39,126 nucleotides of DNA, taken from the NCBI GenBank assembly GCA_013044405.1, contig JABEUR010000151.1, forward strand, positions 1 through 39,126. The letters run 5' to 3'. Both the position numbers and the translations under genes were made by a program. This DNA comes from Acidimicrobiaceae bacterium. GTDB lineage: Bacteria; Actinomycetota; Acidimicrobiia; Acidimicrobiales; RAAP-2. This document shows positions 24,022 to 30,114 of the stretch, piece after piece (position 1 is the stretch's first letter; every line of letters begins with the position of its first letter). The notes beneath the pieces are model-generated. The model was given only the letters and a program-made list of their open reading frames with translations, was not told the DNA's origin and did no database searches.

Positions 24022-25392
24022 ATGTCGCGTCGTATTGAGATCGAAATCACCAGCCTCAGTGGAGAAGTGGCCACCTGGCGCGCTGCCGGAGCGAAACTGC
24101 CTAAAGGAGTGCTCAATGCGGCCCTGGTTCCGGGCGGTGCCGTAGTCGGAAACGTCTATCGCGCCGACGTCGAACAGTACATGGAGGGCATGGAAGTGCT
24201 CTCGGTGATGGCACCCAAGACGGCCTCGCCCCTTGATCCGCATCACGAGCGCATCGAACGTATTCCCAGTGCCAAACAGGGACCTGACGTGGTCGTCACC
24301 TACGCTCCCAAGGGACGCGGAGGATCGCGTCGTGAAGGCGGACGCGACGGAGATCGTGACACTCGCTCACCACGTCGAGAGGGTGGGCCCGGCCGCCGTG
24401 ACGGCAGCGCCAGTCGCCCCGATCGCCCCGATCGCGCCGAACGTTCGGCGCCTCGACGCGACGAATCCGTGAGCAGTTCGGGCGCGGAGTCAACCTCACC
24501 GGAACGAGCCAAACGGCCCTCCGCACGTCCAACAGGCGGACGCGAGCGCCATGGCGCGCCGTCCGCGGAGCGCGGTGCACGTCCGGGACGCCCGGGCCGA
24601 CCAGAGCGTTCGGGTCCGCCAGGACAGCCGCCAATGACCACCACGCATCGCAATGCCCTGTTGGCGACGTTGTCGCCCGAGCAGCTACCAGTCGCCGAGC
24701 AGCTGCTTCGCGGCGGGATGCCGTCGGTTCGAACCGCTGTCGCCGAGCAGAACAAGAACGCCGTCGCGCAGGGTCGTCCCACCATCGACCCCGCGACCAT
24801 CGAGCGCATCGCGGAGGACCTGTTGGGTAAGACCAACGTCGCGCTGTGGAAGGACCGCGCCGCTGGCGCGATCGGTGCGGGCCGCGAACTGCGCTTGCGT
24901 GATCTTCGCGCGGTCGTCACTTCGGCCAAGACCGTGAGCCTCGATGAGGAGGCACGCGCCCAGCTCAAGGAACTTCAAGTCGCCCTCACGGCGCGACTCG
25001 AGCACCTGCGCACGCAGTGGAACGAGCGACTCGAATCGGCAGTGGCCTCAAAGAACGTCACCGAGGCGCTCAGTCTCGTCGCACGTCCCCCGGACATGTC
25101 GACTCGAGTCAGTGCGGACATGGCCGTCAAGGTGGTCGCCGTGGTCTCTGAGGTACTCACCGCCGAACAGGACCCGACACTTTGGAAGCAAGTCGTTGCC
25201 TTGGCGGTCGAAACCTCGATTCGTCGAAACATCAAGCCGACGGGGATCCCCGACGACGAGTCGTGCAAGGCCGTGGCGATTCACAACGCGGGAGCCATAC
25301 CTGAACTGGCCAAGTTGCTCGGGATGCGCGTACCGCCTCCCCCACCGCCGACCCAGGCGCATCGACGAACGGTCACTCGCCGCGCATCGTAA
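24022..25392 (+). CDS. Three-part protein of unknown function with basic disordered linker
   Basis: A 456-residue protein that I do not recognise. Residues 1-95 are probably a small beta-rich domain (PKGVLNAALVPGGAVVGNVY and EQYMEGMEVLSVMAP). Residues ~96-205 are low-complexity, dominated by Arg, Gly, Pro, Ser and Asp, as in nucleic-acid-binding or condensate-forming tails. Residues ~206-440 are helical (for example RLRDLRAVVTSAKTVSLDEE and LRTQWNERLESAVASKNV), and the end has six consecutive prolines. It is expressed from a near-leaderless promoter divergent to the HtrA gene. RNA binding is a guess from composition only. The 3' end overlaps the GNAT gene by 20 bp. Confidence 0.7.
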   Translation: MSRRIEIEITSLSGEVATWRAAGAKLPKGVLNAALVPGGAVVGNVYRADVEQYMEGMEVLSVMAPKTASPLDPHHERIERIPSAKQGPDVVVTYAPKGRGGSRREGGRDGDRDTRSPRREGGPGRRDGSASRPDRPDRAERSAPRRDESVSSSGAESTSPERAKRPSARPTGGRERHGAPSAERGARPGRPGRPERSGPPGQPPMTTTHRNALLATLSPEQLPVAEQLLRGGMPSVRTAVAEQNKNAVAQGRPTIDPATIERIAEDLLGKTNVALWKDRAAGAIGAGRELRLRDLRAVVTSAKTVSLDEEARAQLKELQVALTARLEHLRTQWNERLESAVASKNVTEALSLVARPPDMSTRVSADMAVKVVAVVSEVLTAEQDPTLWKQVVALAVETSIRRNIKPTGIPDDESCKAVAIHNAGAIPELAKLLGMRVPPPPPPTQAHRRTVTRRAS

Positions 25393-25822: not shown

Positions 25823-26266
25823 CTAGACACAGTCACGACAGAGATTCTTGTCCTTGTCAGCCAACTGGCTCGTCTTCTTGAGTAGTCGACACGATGAGCA
25901 TCGGAACTCGTCGTCCTGCTTGGGAAGAATCACCTCTGCCAGTTCGAGCGTGGGGTCAACCTCGCCCACGACCTCGTCGTCGTCTTCTGGTGTGGACGTA
26001 CGACGAATGGTCTCGGCGAGTACCTCATCGAGGGCTAACTCAATGTCCGCGTCGTCGACGATGTCGTCGTCCTCGACCACCACCACTTCGGGGACGATCT
26101 CTTCGCCCTCGATGTCCTCGACGTCGTCGACCTCGACCTCGTCGTCGACTTCCACGTCCTCGTCAACGACGTCTTCGAGGTCCTCTTCGCCGACAATTTC
26201 CTCATCGAAGCCGTCCGCGAGCTCGTCCTCGTCGAACGTCTCGTCTGTTTCGTTGTCACTAACCAT
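25823..26266 (-). CDS. Acidic DUF4193-like protein with C-terminal zinc finger
   Basis: A 147-residue protein whose first ~100 residues are dominated by Asp, Glu and Val, followed by a C-terminal LPKQDDEFRCSSCRLL and LCRDCV. That end matches the actinobacterial DUF4193 family (Rv2699c type) in its KQ-DEF-C-x2-C ... C-x2-C zinc finger. The acidic part is longer than usual. Function of the family is unknown. ATG 26266 is preceded by AGAGG at 5 nt; TACACT (26291-26296) is a possible -10. Confidence 0.78.
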   Translation of the reverse strand: MVSDNETDETFDEDELADGFDEEIVGEEDLEDVVDEDVEVDDEVEVDDVEDIEGEEIVPEVVVVEDDDIVDDADIELALDEVLAETIRRTSTPEDDDEVVGEVDPTLELAEVILPKQDDEFRCSSCRLLKKTSQLADKDKNLCRDCV

Positions 26267-26352
26267 AAAGTCCTCTTCTGTAGCGCTGGAAGTGTAGAGC
26301 CTTTTTGACAAGTGATGACGCTATTTAGGTTTAAAATTGGCTAAAACCGCAT

Positions 26353-27963
26353 TTATTCCCTATTTTGGCGATTCCGCTCGGCCGTTCTCTCCGCTTCGAG
26401 CCGTTCCAGGTCGATATCGGAGTAGTCGACGTAGGTCATGGCATCAGCAATTGCCCCGTGACCTGCGACATCGCGAATCTGACGAGCCATCTCTTGGGCG
26501 ACGCGTCGATAACTCGGGTGGCCCTGCGGGCCCGAACGGAGCTCGATCAAGTGCATTGCCTCGCGAGCGTTCATCTGCATCACGTAACGGATGCGAAATG
26601 CCAGGGCGACGACGTACTGGGCCTGATTGGGGAATTCGTCGACCAGATCGTGGTGCAAGTCGGCGGATCGCTCCAGCGACTCAACGTAGCGACTCTCCAG
26701 GCCCGCCTCGCGTACCAGTTCGGGAACGTCGTACCCGAGATCGACATCGAGGGGCTGCCATTCGATGGTGAGCATCCGATGGCGCTGCAGGTCGCGGAAT
26801 GCCCCGTAGTCGGTCACCAACTCGAAGCGGTACTGCGTACTCTCAAACGCCCGTGAGGGGCGGTGGCGCCGGTTCAGGCGCTCTCCGACGTAGGTCTGGA
26901 TCAGCGAGTGCTTCGAGGAGGAATCGAGTTCGCGAACTCGCGATTCGACTTCGTCGCTCGTCATCGCCGAATTGGCGAACACGATCGCCTCGAGGACTCG
27001 ATCTTCCCCGTGCGGGTCGAAGTCGACGAGTCGAACCTGCTCTTGGGCAATCGGATCGCGTTGAGCGGTCCACAACTCACCAATCAGCCTTTGCGTATCG
27101 ACCTTGGTGGCGGCGAGATAGTGAGTCCACGCTCCCCCACGCTCTGGGACGTTCAGACGTTTGAGAAAGGATGGGATCACCTTGACCAGTTCGTCGTACA
27201 TCAGCTCGGCGTAGGAGCGTACTTCGGGCAGCGGATGGGCACGCATCCGAAGCAGCAGAGCCTCGTAGGCCTGTCCCGATGCGTAGATGCCCAGGTTGGA
27301 CAAGGCACTGGCGGGCAGGAGTCCACGAACGGCGTCGAGGGCCTTGGCCCGGATCGCCTGACGGTAGACAAAGTCGGTGTCTTCGGGCGTCTTGGGGAAC
27401 TTCTTGGAGAGAAACTCGGTCAACTGGGGCAGCAGTTCGGCGTAGGTGTCGAACATTCGGTCCATCTCACCGATGTAGCGCGCTCCGAAGCGCGATTCGA
27501 GAAGGTCGTGGTCACGATAGAAGCGGTAATGGCCGTTCGCCAATCGGCGGTCGTAGCCCAGATACCGAGTGGACTGCTCGAGATAACTCATCAGGCGACC
27601 CCACTCGACAACCTTGGTCAAGACGTTGCTCGCCTGTTCGCAGGCGAGGTGCACTCCGCCCAATTGGGCCACCGAGTCGTCGCCGTACTCATAGAAGATC
27701 TTCTGATAGAGATCATCGGCACGACCCAGACCAACGGTCGCGTCGATGCTCGCGTCCCCGGTCAAATCGAGGTCCCCGACGAACTCATCGAGGAAGAGTC
27801 GTCGAAGACTCTTGGACGATCGTGAGTATCGCGCGAACAGCGCACCCTTGACCACTTCGGGCAGGTTCACCAGAGCGAAGACGGGACCCTCGAGATTGGT
27901 GAAGTACCGACGCAGGATCGCCACCTCGGCCTCCGTGAACTCTTCGGCGACGTAAGGGTGCAT
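26353..27963 (-). CDS. Tandem-domain ThyX-like protein (FAD-dependent thymidylate synthase family)
   Basis: A 536-residue protein, about twice the length of ThyX, made of two ThyX-like units. The first (~40-265) keeps the nucleotide-binding end of the motif, E129-Q-S131-T-R133-Y134, but has W-G-R where RHR is expected. The second (~320-520) has R394-H-R396 but lacks ExSxRY; it also has NRRHRPSRAFE at ~364 and the C-terminal LRSGPQGHPSYRRVAQE. Classic ThyX uses both parts in one motif to bind FAD and dUMP. It could be a monomer that rebuilds one site from two halves, or an enzyme with a new role. TAATCT lies 9 nt upstream. Downstream of helY. Confidence 0.8.
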   Translation of the reverse strand: MHPYVAEEFTEAEVAILRRYFTNLEGPVFALVNLPEVVKGALFARYSRSSKSLRRLFLDEFVGDLDLTGDASIDATVGLGRADDLYQKIFYEYGDDSVAQLGGVHLACEQASNVLTKVVEWGRLMSYLEQSTRYLGYDRRLANGHYRFYRDHDLLESRFGARYIGEMDRMFDTYAELLPQLTEFLSKKFPKTPEDTDFVYRQAIRAKALDAVRGLLPASALSNLGIYASGQAYEALLLRMRAHPLPEVRSYAELMYDELVKVIPSFLKRLNVPERGGAWTHYLAATKVDTQRLIGELWTAQRDPIAQEQVRLVDFDPHGEDRVLEAIVFANSAMTSDEVESRVRELDSSSKHSLIQTYVGERLNRRHRPSRAFESTQYRFELVTDYGAFRDLQRHRMLTIEWQPLDVDLGYDVPELVREAGLESRYVESLERSADLHHDLVDEFPNQAQYVVALAFRIRYVMQMNAREAMHLIELRSGPQGHPSYRRVAQEMARQIRDVAGHGAIADAMTYVDYSDIDLERLEAERTAERNRQNRE

Positions 27964-27987: not shown

Positions 27988-30114
27988 TCACGCTGGGGGG
28001 TGGACGCTGGAGGCACCCGCCACAACACTGCGAATCAGCGAGTCTCGGGCCCGGGCCGCGACCTCGGCGACTCCGCTCGAGGCGTCCATTCGGGCGAGCT
28101 GCTCGCACAGGTCAGCAACCTGCTTGGTGTTTCGAACGAAGTCCCCGGGCGACGTCTGGCCGATCTCGACGTCGGCGAGGTCCAGCACGGTCCCGAGCGA
28201 TGCCCCCCTCGCCCACGCGGCAATCGTCGTAGCGAACTTCGCGTCGGGCTCTTTGGCGTGAGGGACCTTGTAGCGATCCTCGATCTCACGAACGTTCGCG
28301 GCGATGACCATGATCTCGGCGGTGCGCTCGTTCATGTTGCCGCGACGTTCCTGACCCAGACGGTCGTTGAGCGAGCGCTTCTTCGTCGTCACCTGCTTGG
28401 CAACGTTCTGTGCACGCGATGCACGTTTGGACTCATAGACGAAACTCGAGAGCAGGCCGGCGAGTTGGGCGGGCTCGAGGTCTTCAAAGACACCCGCCGT
28501 GATCGACTCGGCGATCAGCAGGTCGCACTCGTGATAGATCGAGCGAAGCAGTTGGCCCTGGGCGTTGAGTCGCCAACCTTCGGCGTATCCGAGTTCTTCG
28601 AGGACGTGGTGACGGGCCAACATCTGATCGCCCAGCGGGCGTTTGGCACCAGTGGGTCGATGGTCCGTTTCGAACTGGGCGTACGAGCGTTGGACCACTT
28701 CGAGAGCGGTTGCGAACTCGAAGTGGTTAATCAGGTTGGCGGTGAAGTTGTAGGTCGGTCGAAACGACGAATGCAGGTCCGAAGGAGGTGCCAGGGCTAC
28801 TCGCGCGACGTCGTGCAGGGCGATCTCATTGGCGAAGCAGACAATGGCGTGACCCTCGTCGTCGAGCCCACGCCTGCCCGCGCGACCGGTCATCTGGGAA
28901 AACTCACCACTGGTGAGAAACTTTCGTCCGGCGTCGGAGTACTTGGAGAACTTCTCCAGGGCCACGGAACGCGCCGGCATGTTGACGCCGAGCGCCAGGG
29001 TCTCCGTGGCAAAGACGACCGCGAGAAGATTGCGTTCGAAGCAGACCTCGACGATCTCACGAAAGGCCGGGACCATTCCCGCATGGTGCATGGCCAGACC
29101 CCGGCGAATGGAGTCGATGAAGTCGGCGTATTCCAGCGCTTTGAGATCGTCGTCAGTGAACTCACTGAGGCGTGCTTGAGCCAGGGCGTCGATCTCGAGG
29201 CGCTGCTCTGCGGTGGTGAATCGAAGTCCGTCGCGGCGACATTGGTGCACCGCATCATCACAGGCCGAGCGCGAGAAGATGAAGACAATGACGGGCAGTA
29301 GATCCTCGCGTTCGAGCGCGAGCAGCAGCTCGCTTCGTCGCGGGGAGCGAAAGGGCGGCGGGGGTGCGCTGGTCTTGGGCCCCTTCCACTTCGGACCGGG
29401 ACGGAAGCGTCGGGTCGCCTTCATCAGGTTGTCGATTCGTCGCCCTTCATCGGAAAGACGTGGTCCGTCGAGCAGATCGACGACCTCGGCCGCGGTCTGA
29501 CCGCGTCGTACCACCGCCAAGTGGTTGTGGAGCTGAATCGGGCGCGTCTTTTCAATGATCACCGAAGTCGGACCACGGACCTCGCTGAACCACTCTCCGA
29601 CGAAGCTCGCGTTGCCGATCGTCGCCGACAGGGCTACGAAGCGAACGGCCGAGGGAGTCAGAATGATGACCTCCTCCCAGACGCCGCCGCGAAACGGATC
29701 CTGGAGGTAGTGGACTTCGTCCAGCACCACAAGGCCGAGCTCGCGAAGTTGGTCGGATTCGGTCAACAACATGTTCCTCAGCACCTCGGTGGTCATCACG
29801 ATGACGTCACCAGTTCGATTGATCGAGGTGTCTCCCGTGAGCAGTCCTACCCGCCGATCGCCGTAGAGCGCGCGAAGTTCGTTGAACTTCTGATTGGAGA
29901 GAGCCTTCAGCGGTGTGGTGTAGAAGGCGCGCTCGCCTCGTTCGAGGGTGCGACCGATGGCGTAGTTGGCGATCAGTGTCTTACCCGAACCGGTCGGGGC
30001 GCTCACGAGAACGTTCACGTGCTCGTCGATTGCTTCGATGGCCTCTTTCTGGAACTCATCAAGTCCGAAGCCAAGGGCGTTGGTAAATCGACTCCGGTAG
30101 TCGCTGGTGCTCAC
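27988..30114 (-). CDS. helY: Ski2/Mtr4-like DEAD/DEAH-box RNA helicase, HelY
   Basis: A 708-residue superfamily-2 helicase. The Walker A is APTGSGKT (39-46), the DEVH box is at 132-135 in VVLDEVHYLQDP, and motif III is ALSATIGN. QMTGRAGRRGLD follows later and identifies the Ski2-like group. Such enzymes probably unwind structured RNA for decay. HelY directly follows tatC in mycobacteria, as here. The protein is shorter than mycobacterial HelY (about 900 residues), mainly by a smaller C-terminal part. It starts with GTG at a 4-bp overlap with tatC. Confidence 0.93.
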   Translation of the reverse strand: MSTSDYRSRFTNALGFGLDEFQKEAIEAIDEHVNVLVSAPTGSGKTLIANYAIGRTLERGERAFYTTPLKALSNQKFNELRALYGDRRVGLLTGDTSINRTGDVIVMTTEVLRNMLLTESDQLRELGLVVLDEVHYLQDPFRGGVWEEVIILTPSAVRFVALSATIGNASFVGEWFSEVRGPTSVIIEKTRPIQLHNHLAVVRRGQTAAEVVDLLDGPRLSDEGRRIDNLMKATRRFRPGPKWKGPKTSAPPPPFRSPRRSELLLALEREDLLPVIVFIFSRSACDDAVHQCRRDGLRFTTAEQRLEIDALAQARLSEFTDDDLKALEYADFIDSIRRGLAMHHAGMVPAFREIVEVCFERNLLAVVFATETLALGVNMPARSVALEKFSKYSDAGRKFLTSGEFSQMTGRAGRRGLDDEGHAIVCFANEIALHDVARVALAPPSDLHSSFRPTYNFTANLINHFEFATALEVVQRSYAQFETDHRPTGAKRPLGDQMLARHHVLEELGYAEGWRLNAQGQLLRSIYHECDLLIAESITAGVFEDLEPAQLAGLLSSFVYESKRASRAQNVAKQVTTKKRSLNDRLGQERRGNMNERTAEIMVIAANVREIEDRYKVPHAKEPDAKFATTIAAWARGASLGTVLDLADVEIGQTSPGDFVRNTKQVADLCEQLARMDASSGVAEVAARARDSLIRSVVAGASSVHPPA

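Follow-up and report, generated by a model that had tools for sequence, protein, structure and literature searches.

A tandem ThyX-family protein of Acidimicrobiia with the RHR and ExSxRY motifs in different halves

The tandem thyX locus and its relatives

We analyzed a stretch of 39,126 nucleotides from an Acidimicrobiaceae bacterium (hereafter, the window; contig JABEUR010000151.1 of assembly GCA_013044405.1). One open reading frame on its minus strand, here designated tandem thyX, codes for a 536-residue protein that, judged from sequence, is a fusion of two ThyX (Thy1) domains. The Pfam family Thy1 (PF02511) matched two stretches of this protein (E 6.3e-35, 121.1 bits against a cut-off of 24.8), and the NCBIfam thyX equivalog model TIGR02170 gave 55.4 bits, below its cut-off of 87.9. 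The features of the gene are as follows, with T. maritima and M. tuberculosis equivalents where they are used below.

26353..27963, minus strand: tandem thyX open reading frame, ATG start, 536 aa plus stop (stop inside the coordinates)
27151..27963, minus strand: N-half ThyX domain, aa 1-271, proposed dUMP-side half-site (hhalign to canonical ThyX profile, Prob 98.7; boundary from the model)
27049..27150, minus strand: linker region, aa 272-305, modeled by AlphaFold2 largely as a single helix (273-297)
26356..27048, minus strand: C-half ThyX domain, aa 306-536, proposed FAD-side half-site (hhalign, Prob 98.5; VIA-align to T. maritima ThyX)
27817..27825, minus strand: SRS 47-49 of the N-half, at least 90% conserved in the 49-sequence alignment A5
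27673..27675, minus strand: S97 in GDDS (T. maritima T55, M. tuberculosis S71), Ser in 48/49
27595..27603, minus strand: WGR 121-123, degenerate RHR position of the N-half with the R80 equivalent kept (alignment columns)
27562..27579, minus strand: EQSTRY 129-134, dUMP loop (E, S and R 49/49; Y 48/49)
27325..27327, minus strand: R213 (T. maritima R147), 49/49
26842..26874, minus strand: NRRHRPSRAFE 364-374, equivalent of the GHxTPFE segment in the C-half, with a short insertion (hhalign)
26776..26784, minus strand: RHR 394-396, flavin/dUMP arginines (R394 49/49, H395 47/49, R396 49/49)
26536..26538, minus strand: R476 (T. maritima R174), 49/49

The residue numbers that the earlier note had assigned to WGR, EQSTRY, NRRHRPSRAFE and RHR (121-123, 129-134, 364-374 and 394-396) were all exact. 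On the minus strand, tandem thyX is preceded, 24 bases away, by a gene for a DEAD/DSHCT helicase (27988-30114) and then by genes for TatC, PafA, proteasome alpha and Dop, and it is followed by a gene for a DUF4193 protein (25823-26311). A 456-aa open reading frame on the plus strand (24022-25392) has a low-complexity middle rich in R, G, S and P and gave no Pfam match at E up to 1. Among the eight window proteins scanned, no nucleotide-metabolism gene was found besides tandem thyX.

A search of genome contigs gave 235 related stretches, from which the best 80 loci were taken. These shared 65-82% identity with the window protein and were mostly titled Acidimicrobiaceae, Acidimicrobiales or actinobacteria, and the class name Acidimicrobiia used here was deduced from such titles. 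One matching reading frame was present in each of them (80/80), which argues that the tandem frame is not due to chance; two frames were truncated by the contig start (L077 and L081) and one was 501 aa long (L055). Alignment A1 comprised the window protein and 34 of the 80 loci. For a non-redundant set, the window protein was pooled with five of the 80 loci, nine plasmid or phage proteins and 98 further loci, the partial loci L108 and L149 being excluded; 49 tandem proteins were retained, in which no pair had at least 70% identity over 250 residues. A separate alignment, A5, also had 49 sequences and contained only the window protein and related contig loci.

Tandem relatives were also detected well beyond this group. 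By tblastn, we found them on six plasmids, all annotated as FAD-dependent thymidylate synthase: those of Parabacteroides, Miltoncostaea and Euzebya (44-46% identity) and those of two Paenibacillus and of Bacillus halotolerans (23-25%). Fourteen phage records were detected in the same way, including eight of Microcystis phages (Ma-LMM01 among them), one cyanophage, Tunturiibacter phage Tunturi_5 and four Vibrio phages. Scans of IMG/VR yielded further tandem relatives; a viral scan with the Tunturi_5 protein as query gave no match, and one with the Parabacteroides protein gave a single, already known contig. Within the phylum, the A5 profile matched 260 of 396 genomes, some of these through weak similarity to canonical ThyX, and full-length tandem matches were present in many families outside the class. 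Two tandem thyX genes (L004 and L014) occurred in one metagenome-assembled genome (PKWY01), and another genome (G333) had two full-length matches. Two viral tandem ThyX of Bacillus type, L168 (903 aa, reading frame from 986) and L169 (910 aa, reading frame from 1046), carried a 332-residue intein-like insert in the N-half at YGHS^S, with Cys as its first residue and SGN as the last residues before Ser; L168 matched LAGLIDADG_3.

Distribution of active-site motifs and predicted fold

Neither the window protein nor profile A1 gave a match in a PDB sequence search, and the link to canonical ThyX was made by way of a single-domain ThyX from the same class and profile alignment. In the profile-profile alignment, N-halves and C-halves (47 rows each, the 49 proteins minus two with intein-like inserts) were compared with 11 canonical single-domain ThyX. 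In A1 (35 sequences), E129-Q-S-T-R-Y134, R213, R394-H-R396 and R476 were invariant. The same picture was seen among the 49 non-redundant proteins from bacteria, plasmids and phages, in which E129, S131, R133 and R213 of the N-half (E86, S88, R90 and R147 in T. maritima numbering) and R394, R396 and R476 of the C-half (R78, R80 and R174) were all present in 49/49. Y134 (Y91) was replaced only in L172, by Lys, and H395 (H79) only in L173 and L205, by Gln. Invariant columns of A5 were nine: E109, E129, S131, R133, R213, P217, R394, R396 and R476.

The two motifs thus lie in different halves. ExSxRY was present in 48/49 N-halves and in 0/49 C-halves; for the window protein, the earlier note had correctly observed that the second unit has RHR without ExSxRY. 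RHR or RHNR was found in 47/49 C-halves and RQR in the other two; the additional Asn inside the motif belongs to the Bacillus-type proteins. At the corresponding N-half position an intact RHR was seen in 0/49, the sole RHR string in an N-half (L105) being located elsewhere. In the control set of 11 canonical ThyX, RHR was present in 8 and SxRY in 11 (preceded by Glu in 10), in one chain each. Three single-domain phage ThyX-like proteins (L157-L159, from phiTE, Cursive and CRP-2) had KHQ, KYT and KHE in place of RHR and kept NExSRRY.

The loss of flavin-side residues from the N-half is not complete. The statement of the earlier note that the first unit keeps ExSxRY at 129-134 and has WGR at the RHR position stands, but the last Arg of RHR (R123) is retained and Arg is also found at the R174 column. 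In N-halves, the R78 column held mostly W, D, S or L, with R in either three or four depending on the alignment, and the H79 column mostly G or N. At the R80 column, Arg was kept in 21/49 N-halves, including that of the window protein. We also considered a loss of R174 from all N-halves and rejected it, since Arg occupied that column in 21/47, again including the window protein (in LLLRMR). The N-half of the window protein appears, from these alignments, to have lost the equivalents of R78 and H79 and not every flavin-side residue. The alignments point to a clean division only for RHR and ExSxRY (with R147), and the fit to subunit roles described below is therefore a matter of consistency and not an independent statistical test.

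Several other positions were examined. The S97 position had Ser in 48/49 N-halves. The column of H53, a residue which stacks on folate in T. maritima, had Asp in 20/49 and His in 28/49 N-halves, and Pro occupied the aligned C-half position in the window protein; the E58 position also varied among tandem proteins. At the R165 column (M. tuberculosis Arg190), R was present in 25 N-halves and 21 C-halves, with no consistent half. The segment NRRHRPSRAFE, described in the earlier note as having no clear equivalent in ThyX, does have one: in the profile alignment P369-E374 align with T. maritima H53-E58 after an insertion of about five residues. The segment includes a decoy RHR (366-368), and its candidacy as a second RHR motif was rejected because it aligns with H53-E58, reads RHK in many relatives and is absent in distant ones.

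Both halves are related to canonical ThyX. hhalign matched them to the canonical ThyX profile with probabilities of 98.7 (N-halves) and 98.5 (C-halves). In an unrooted FastTree, N-halves (47), C-halves (47) and canonical ThyX each formed one error-free group (support 0.997, 0.98 and 0.819, respectively). This lends support to a single duplication after which the roles were divided once, although at such low similarity the tree counts as support and not as proof. When the window protein was modeled as a single chain by AlphaFold2 with alignment A5, pLDDT was 89.3 and pTM 0.88. With the narrow alignment A1, pLDDT was 72.5 and the N-half was poor (residues 94-134 below 50); the increase resulted from the distant viral relatives added in A5. 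The predicted C-half was superimposed by VIA-align on T. maritima ThyX (TM0449), residues 306-516 on 7-218, with Z 17.3 and rmsd 2.3 over 192 residues. VIA-align rows covered mainly residues 305-517, and the absence of the N-half there is uninformative on its fold; it is the profile alignment (98.7) that backs a ThyX fold for this half. In a Foldseek search against viral models, the Ma-LMM01 thymidylate synthase came first (524 columns, rmsd 13.8, TM 0.56).

Thymidylate synthesis in Acidimicrobiia genomes

The earlier note had proposed a search for a separate thyA or thyX as a check on its reading. In the window's genome (2.2 Mb, 85% complete) we found no other Thy1, no ThyA and no DHFR_1, so a normal second enzyme did not come to light. 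dUTPase and thymidine kinase were present, and the latter makes salvage possible.

Across the class, Thy1 was detected in 272 of 296 genomes and a ThyA match in 30. The two were nearly exclusive: ThyA matches occurred in 8 of the 272 Thy1-containing genomes and in 22 of the 24 genomes lacking Thy1, which left 264 with Thy1 and no ThyA (Fisher p 1.6e-24, a guide only, as the genomes are related). The set without Thy1 consists of 20 listed genomes and four (G195, G197, G199 and G203) that we infer to be the others. By our reading of the matches, 258 of the Thy1-containing genomes had two Thy1 matches, three had three and three had one, and the remaining eight had a canonical single-domain protein. 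These eight canonical ThyX (L083-L090; frames of 220-229 aa) belong to small genomes of one genus (f37/g98), which have them in place of the tandem form. As for the eight genomes with both Thy1 and a ThyA match, the latter was weak and partial in five, in two pieces in G009 and full length in G096 and G242. Neither family was detected in G211 and G193. In three genomes of the same genus (G057, G243 and G246), the ThyA-family matches were weak and partial (E 5.6e-14 to 9.4e-17) and could be ThyA-like hydroxymethylases. Since families f39 and f42 each hold both states, replacement between Thy1 and ThyA has probably occurred more than once in the class.

Such a near-exclusive distribution is expected if the tandem protein is a thymidylate synthase, and ThyA and ThyX are known to be anticorrelated in other settings, jumbo phages being one example (PMC7824862, from excerpts). 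DHFR_1 was present in 13 of the 296 genomes, including 11 with ThyA, in 10 of which it lay within approximately 120 bases of thyA, and 2 of the 264 with Thy1 and no ThyA. Its scarcity in the latter fits a ThyX-type enzyme but is weak evidence, because 19 of the 30 ThyA-bearing genomes also lacked DHFR_1. Taken at face value, most of the sampled class apparently has no thymidylate synthase other than the tandem protein.

Two other functions were weighed against these data. One is that of a flavin-dependent C5-uracil methylase acting on another substrate, such as UMP or nucleic acid, with dTMP supplied by salvage. There is precedent in PolB, which methylates UMP during polyoxin biosynthesis, and in ThyX paralogues acting on substrates of this kind (excerpts of PMC5954106); the thymidine kinase of the window's genome would suit this function as well. 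However, the protein is the sole Thy1 of that genome, which (at 85% completeness) has no ThyA; Thy1 and ThyA are nearly exclusive across the class; and relatives adjoin a dCMP deaminase in phage Tunturi_5 and lie near a dCTP deaminase on the Euzebya plasmid. We consider such a function very unlikely. The other is a ThyX that has degenerated and lost the ability to make dTMP, similar to the atypical ThyX of Corynebacterium glutamicum NCHU 87078 described in the PDB titles of 3fnn and 3ge9. Incomplete motifs in each half and the missed TIGR02170 cut-off would agree with degeneration, but decay would not keep seven catalytic positions in 49/49 very distant sequences, and the C. glutamicum control genome has ThyA in addition to Thy1, whereas in 264 of the 296 genomes of the class Thy1 occurs with no ThyA match beside it. 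This makes loss of function highly improbable.

Proposed division of labor and comparison with known ThyX

According to a review of solved structures, the ThyX active site is built from three subunits: A contributes RHR (95-97) and Arg199, B contributes Ser71 and Arg190, and C contributes Arg87, Ser105, Arg107 and Tyr108 (PMC6514825). In PBCV-1 ThyX, an inhibitor in the place of uracil contacts Arg182 of monomer A and Ser88 of monomer B (PMC3498832). R174 is described as activating dUMP, and S88A, R90A and Y91A as each strongly slowing one step (PMC8316439); R78 is placed at the flavin and S88 at flavin O4 (PMC11940539). Since RHR/Arg199 and Ser105/Arg107/Tyr108 come from different subunits in solved ThyX, the C-half of the tandem protein may correspond to role A and the N-half to role C.

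We propose that two ThyX domains were fused long ago and that the site was then divided between them. The C-half would act as the subunit that binds the flavin and the edge of the uracil (RHR and R476), and the N-half as the one that binds dUMP and seals the site (E129-x-S131-x-R133-Y134, together with R213). A pair of chains would probably form a four-domain pseudo-222 tetramer. Two of its sites, each at a contact between a C-half and an N-half, would be complete, and the other two would be incomplete. We infer the dimer, the pairing of chains and the catalysis. Tentatively, the near-invariance of S97 points to another N-half as the third partner in a working site; the R165 column is mixed in this respect.

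A thymidylate synthase whose site is completed within one chain (a one-site monomer), or whose oligomer is not a pseudo-222 tetramer, was also considered. The halves are covalently joined and the single-chain model is confident as a unit (pTM 0.88). On the other hand, the ThyX sites known from solved structures use three subunits (PMC6514825), which a two-domain monomer cannot supply, and we regard this arrangement as quite unlikely. The idea of composite half-sites put forward in the earlier note has gained ground from complementary conservation of RHR and ExSxRY in 49 tandem proteins, published subunit roles, the lack of other Thy1 or ThyA in the window's genome and the near-exclusive distribution in the class, and a thymidylate synthase with complementary half-sites is, in our judgment, the likely identity of the tandem protein. 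A further step would be an obligately asymmetric enzyme, in which both composite sites are active and the pair of vacated ones has been retained for a different function, such as the handling of NADPH or folate, or allosteric control. Positions such as E109, which is invariant in tandem proteins and not in canonical ThyX, would serve this function together with the RRH(R/K)P segment seen in C-halves of the Acidimicrobiia type. We offer this extension as a speculation that is unlikely to hold.

The tandem protein was compared with several known systems. Single-domain ThyX (T. maritima TM0449, M. tuberculosis) shares the fold of the C-half and the profile match of both halves, and the tandem protein contains all of its RHR, ExSxRY, R147 and R174 residues. 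The tandem protein differs in that its chain has two domains, with RHR in one and ExSxRY in the other, and in scoring below the TIGR02170 cut-off. Thermus thermophilus Thy1 (6j61) is ThyX-related and longer than usual, with an extra C-terminal domain; unlike the tandem form, it has one ThyX domain with intact RHR and ExSxRY. The UMP/dUMP methylase PolB (4p5a/4p5b) resembles the C-half in fold (Z 14.9 to 4p5b) but is a single-domain protein with a role in secondary metabolism. The Ma-LMM01 thymidylate synthase (PHROG 36506) and related phage and plasmid tandem proteins have the same tandem build and the same division of RHR and ExSxRY. These are distant (approximately 23-27% identity for the phage and Bacillales proteins) and are annotated as thymidylate synthase, FAD-dependent thymidylate synthase or hypothetical protein.

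Duplicated ThyX domains have been noticed before. Chloroflexi except Dehalococcoides were reported to have only ThyX, with a domain duplication called uncharacterised (Valas and Bourne 2009, PMC3224940). The likeness lies in the duplication and the ThyX-only genomes, and the comparison is by description, as the available text gives no residues. In the open-access PMC literature, to the extent of the text available, we found no description of complementary half-sites in tandem ThyX, and the accessible parts of PMC5954106, PMC10733785, PMC9931769, PMC7824862 and PMC9927357 do not describe the split. The tandem form was thus already noticed in 2009, and within these sources the division of labor and its depth appear to be new.

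The recurrence of this split in bacteria, plasmids and phages far removed from one another gives it the look of an ancient division of labor that still works, and not of decay. A symmetric homo-oligomer seems to have been turned into an asymmetric fused enzyme before the family spread to these hosts and elements. ThyX has been studied as an antibacterial target. Its site is common to three identical subunits, and a residue changed for one role is altered in all roles. The tandem form would separate these roles naturally: with RHR and SxRY in different halves, each could be mutated, swapped or complemented independently.
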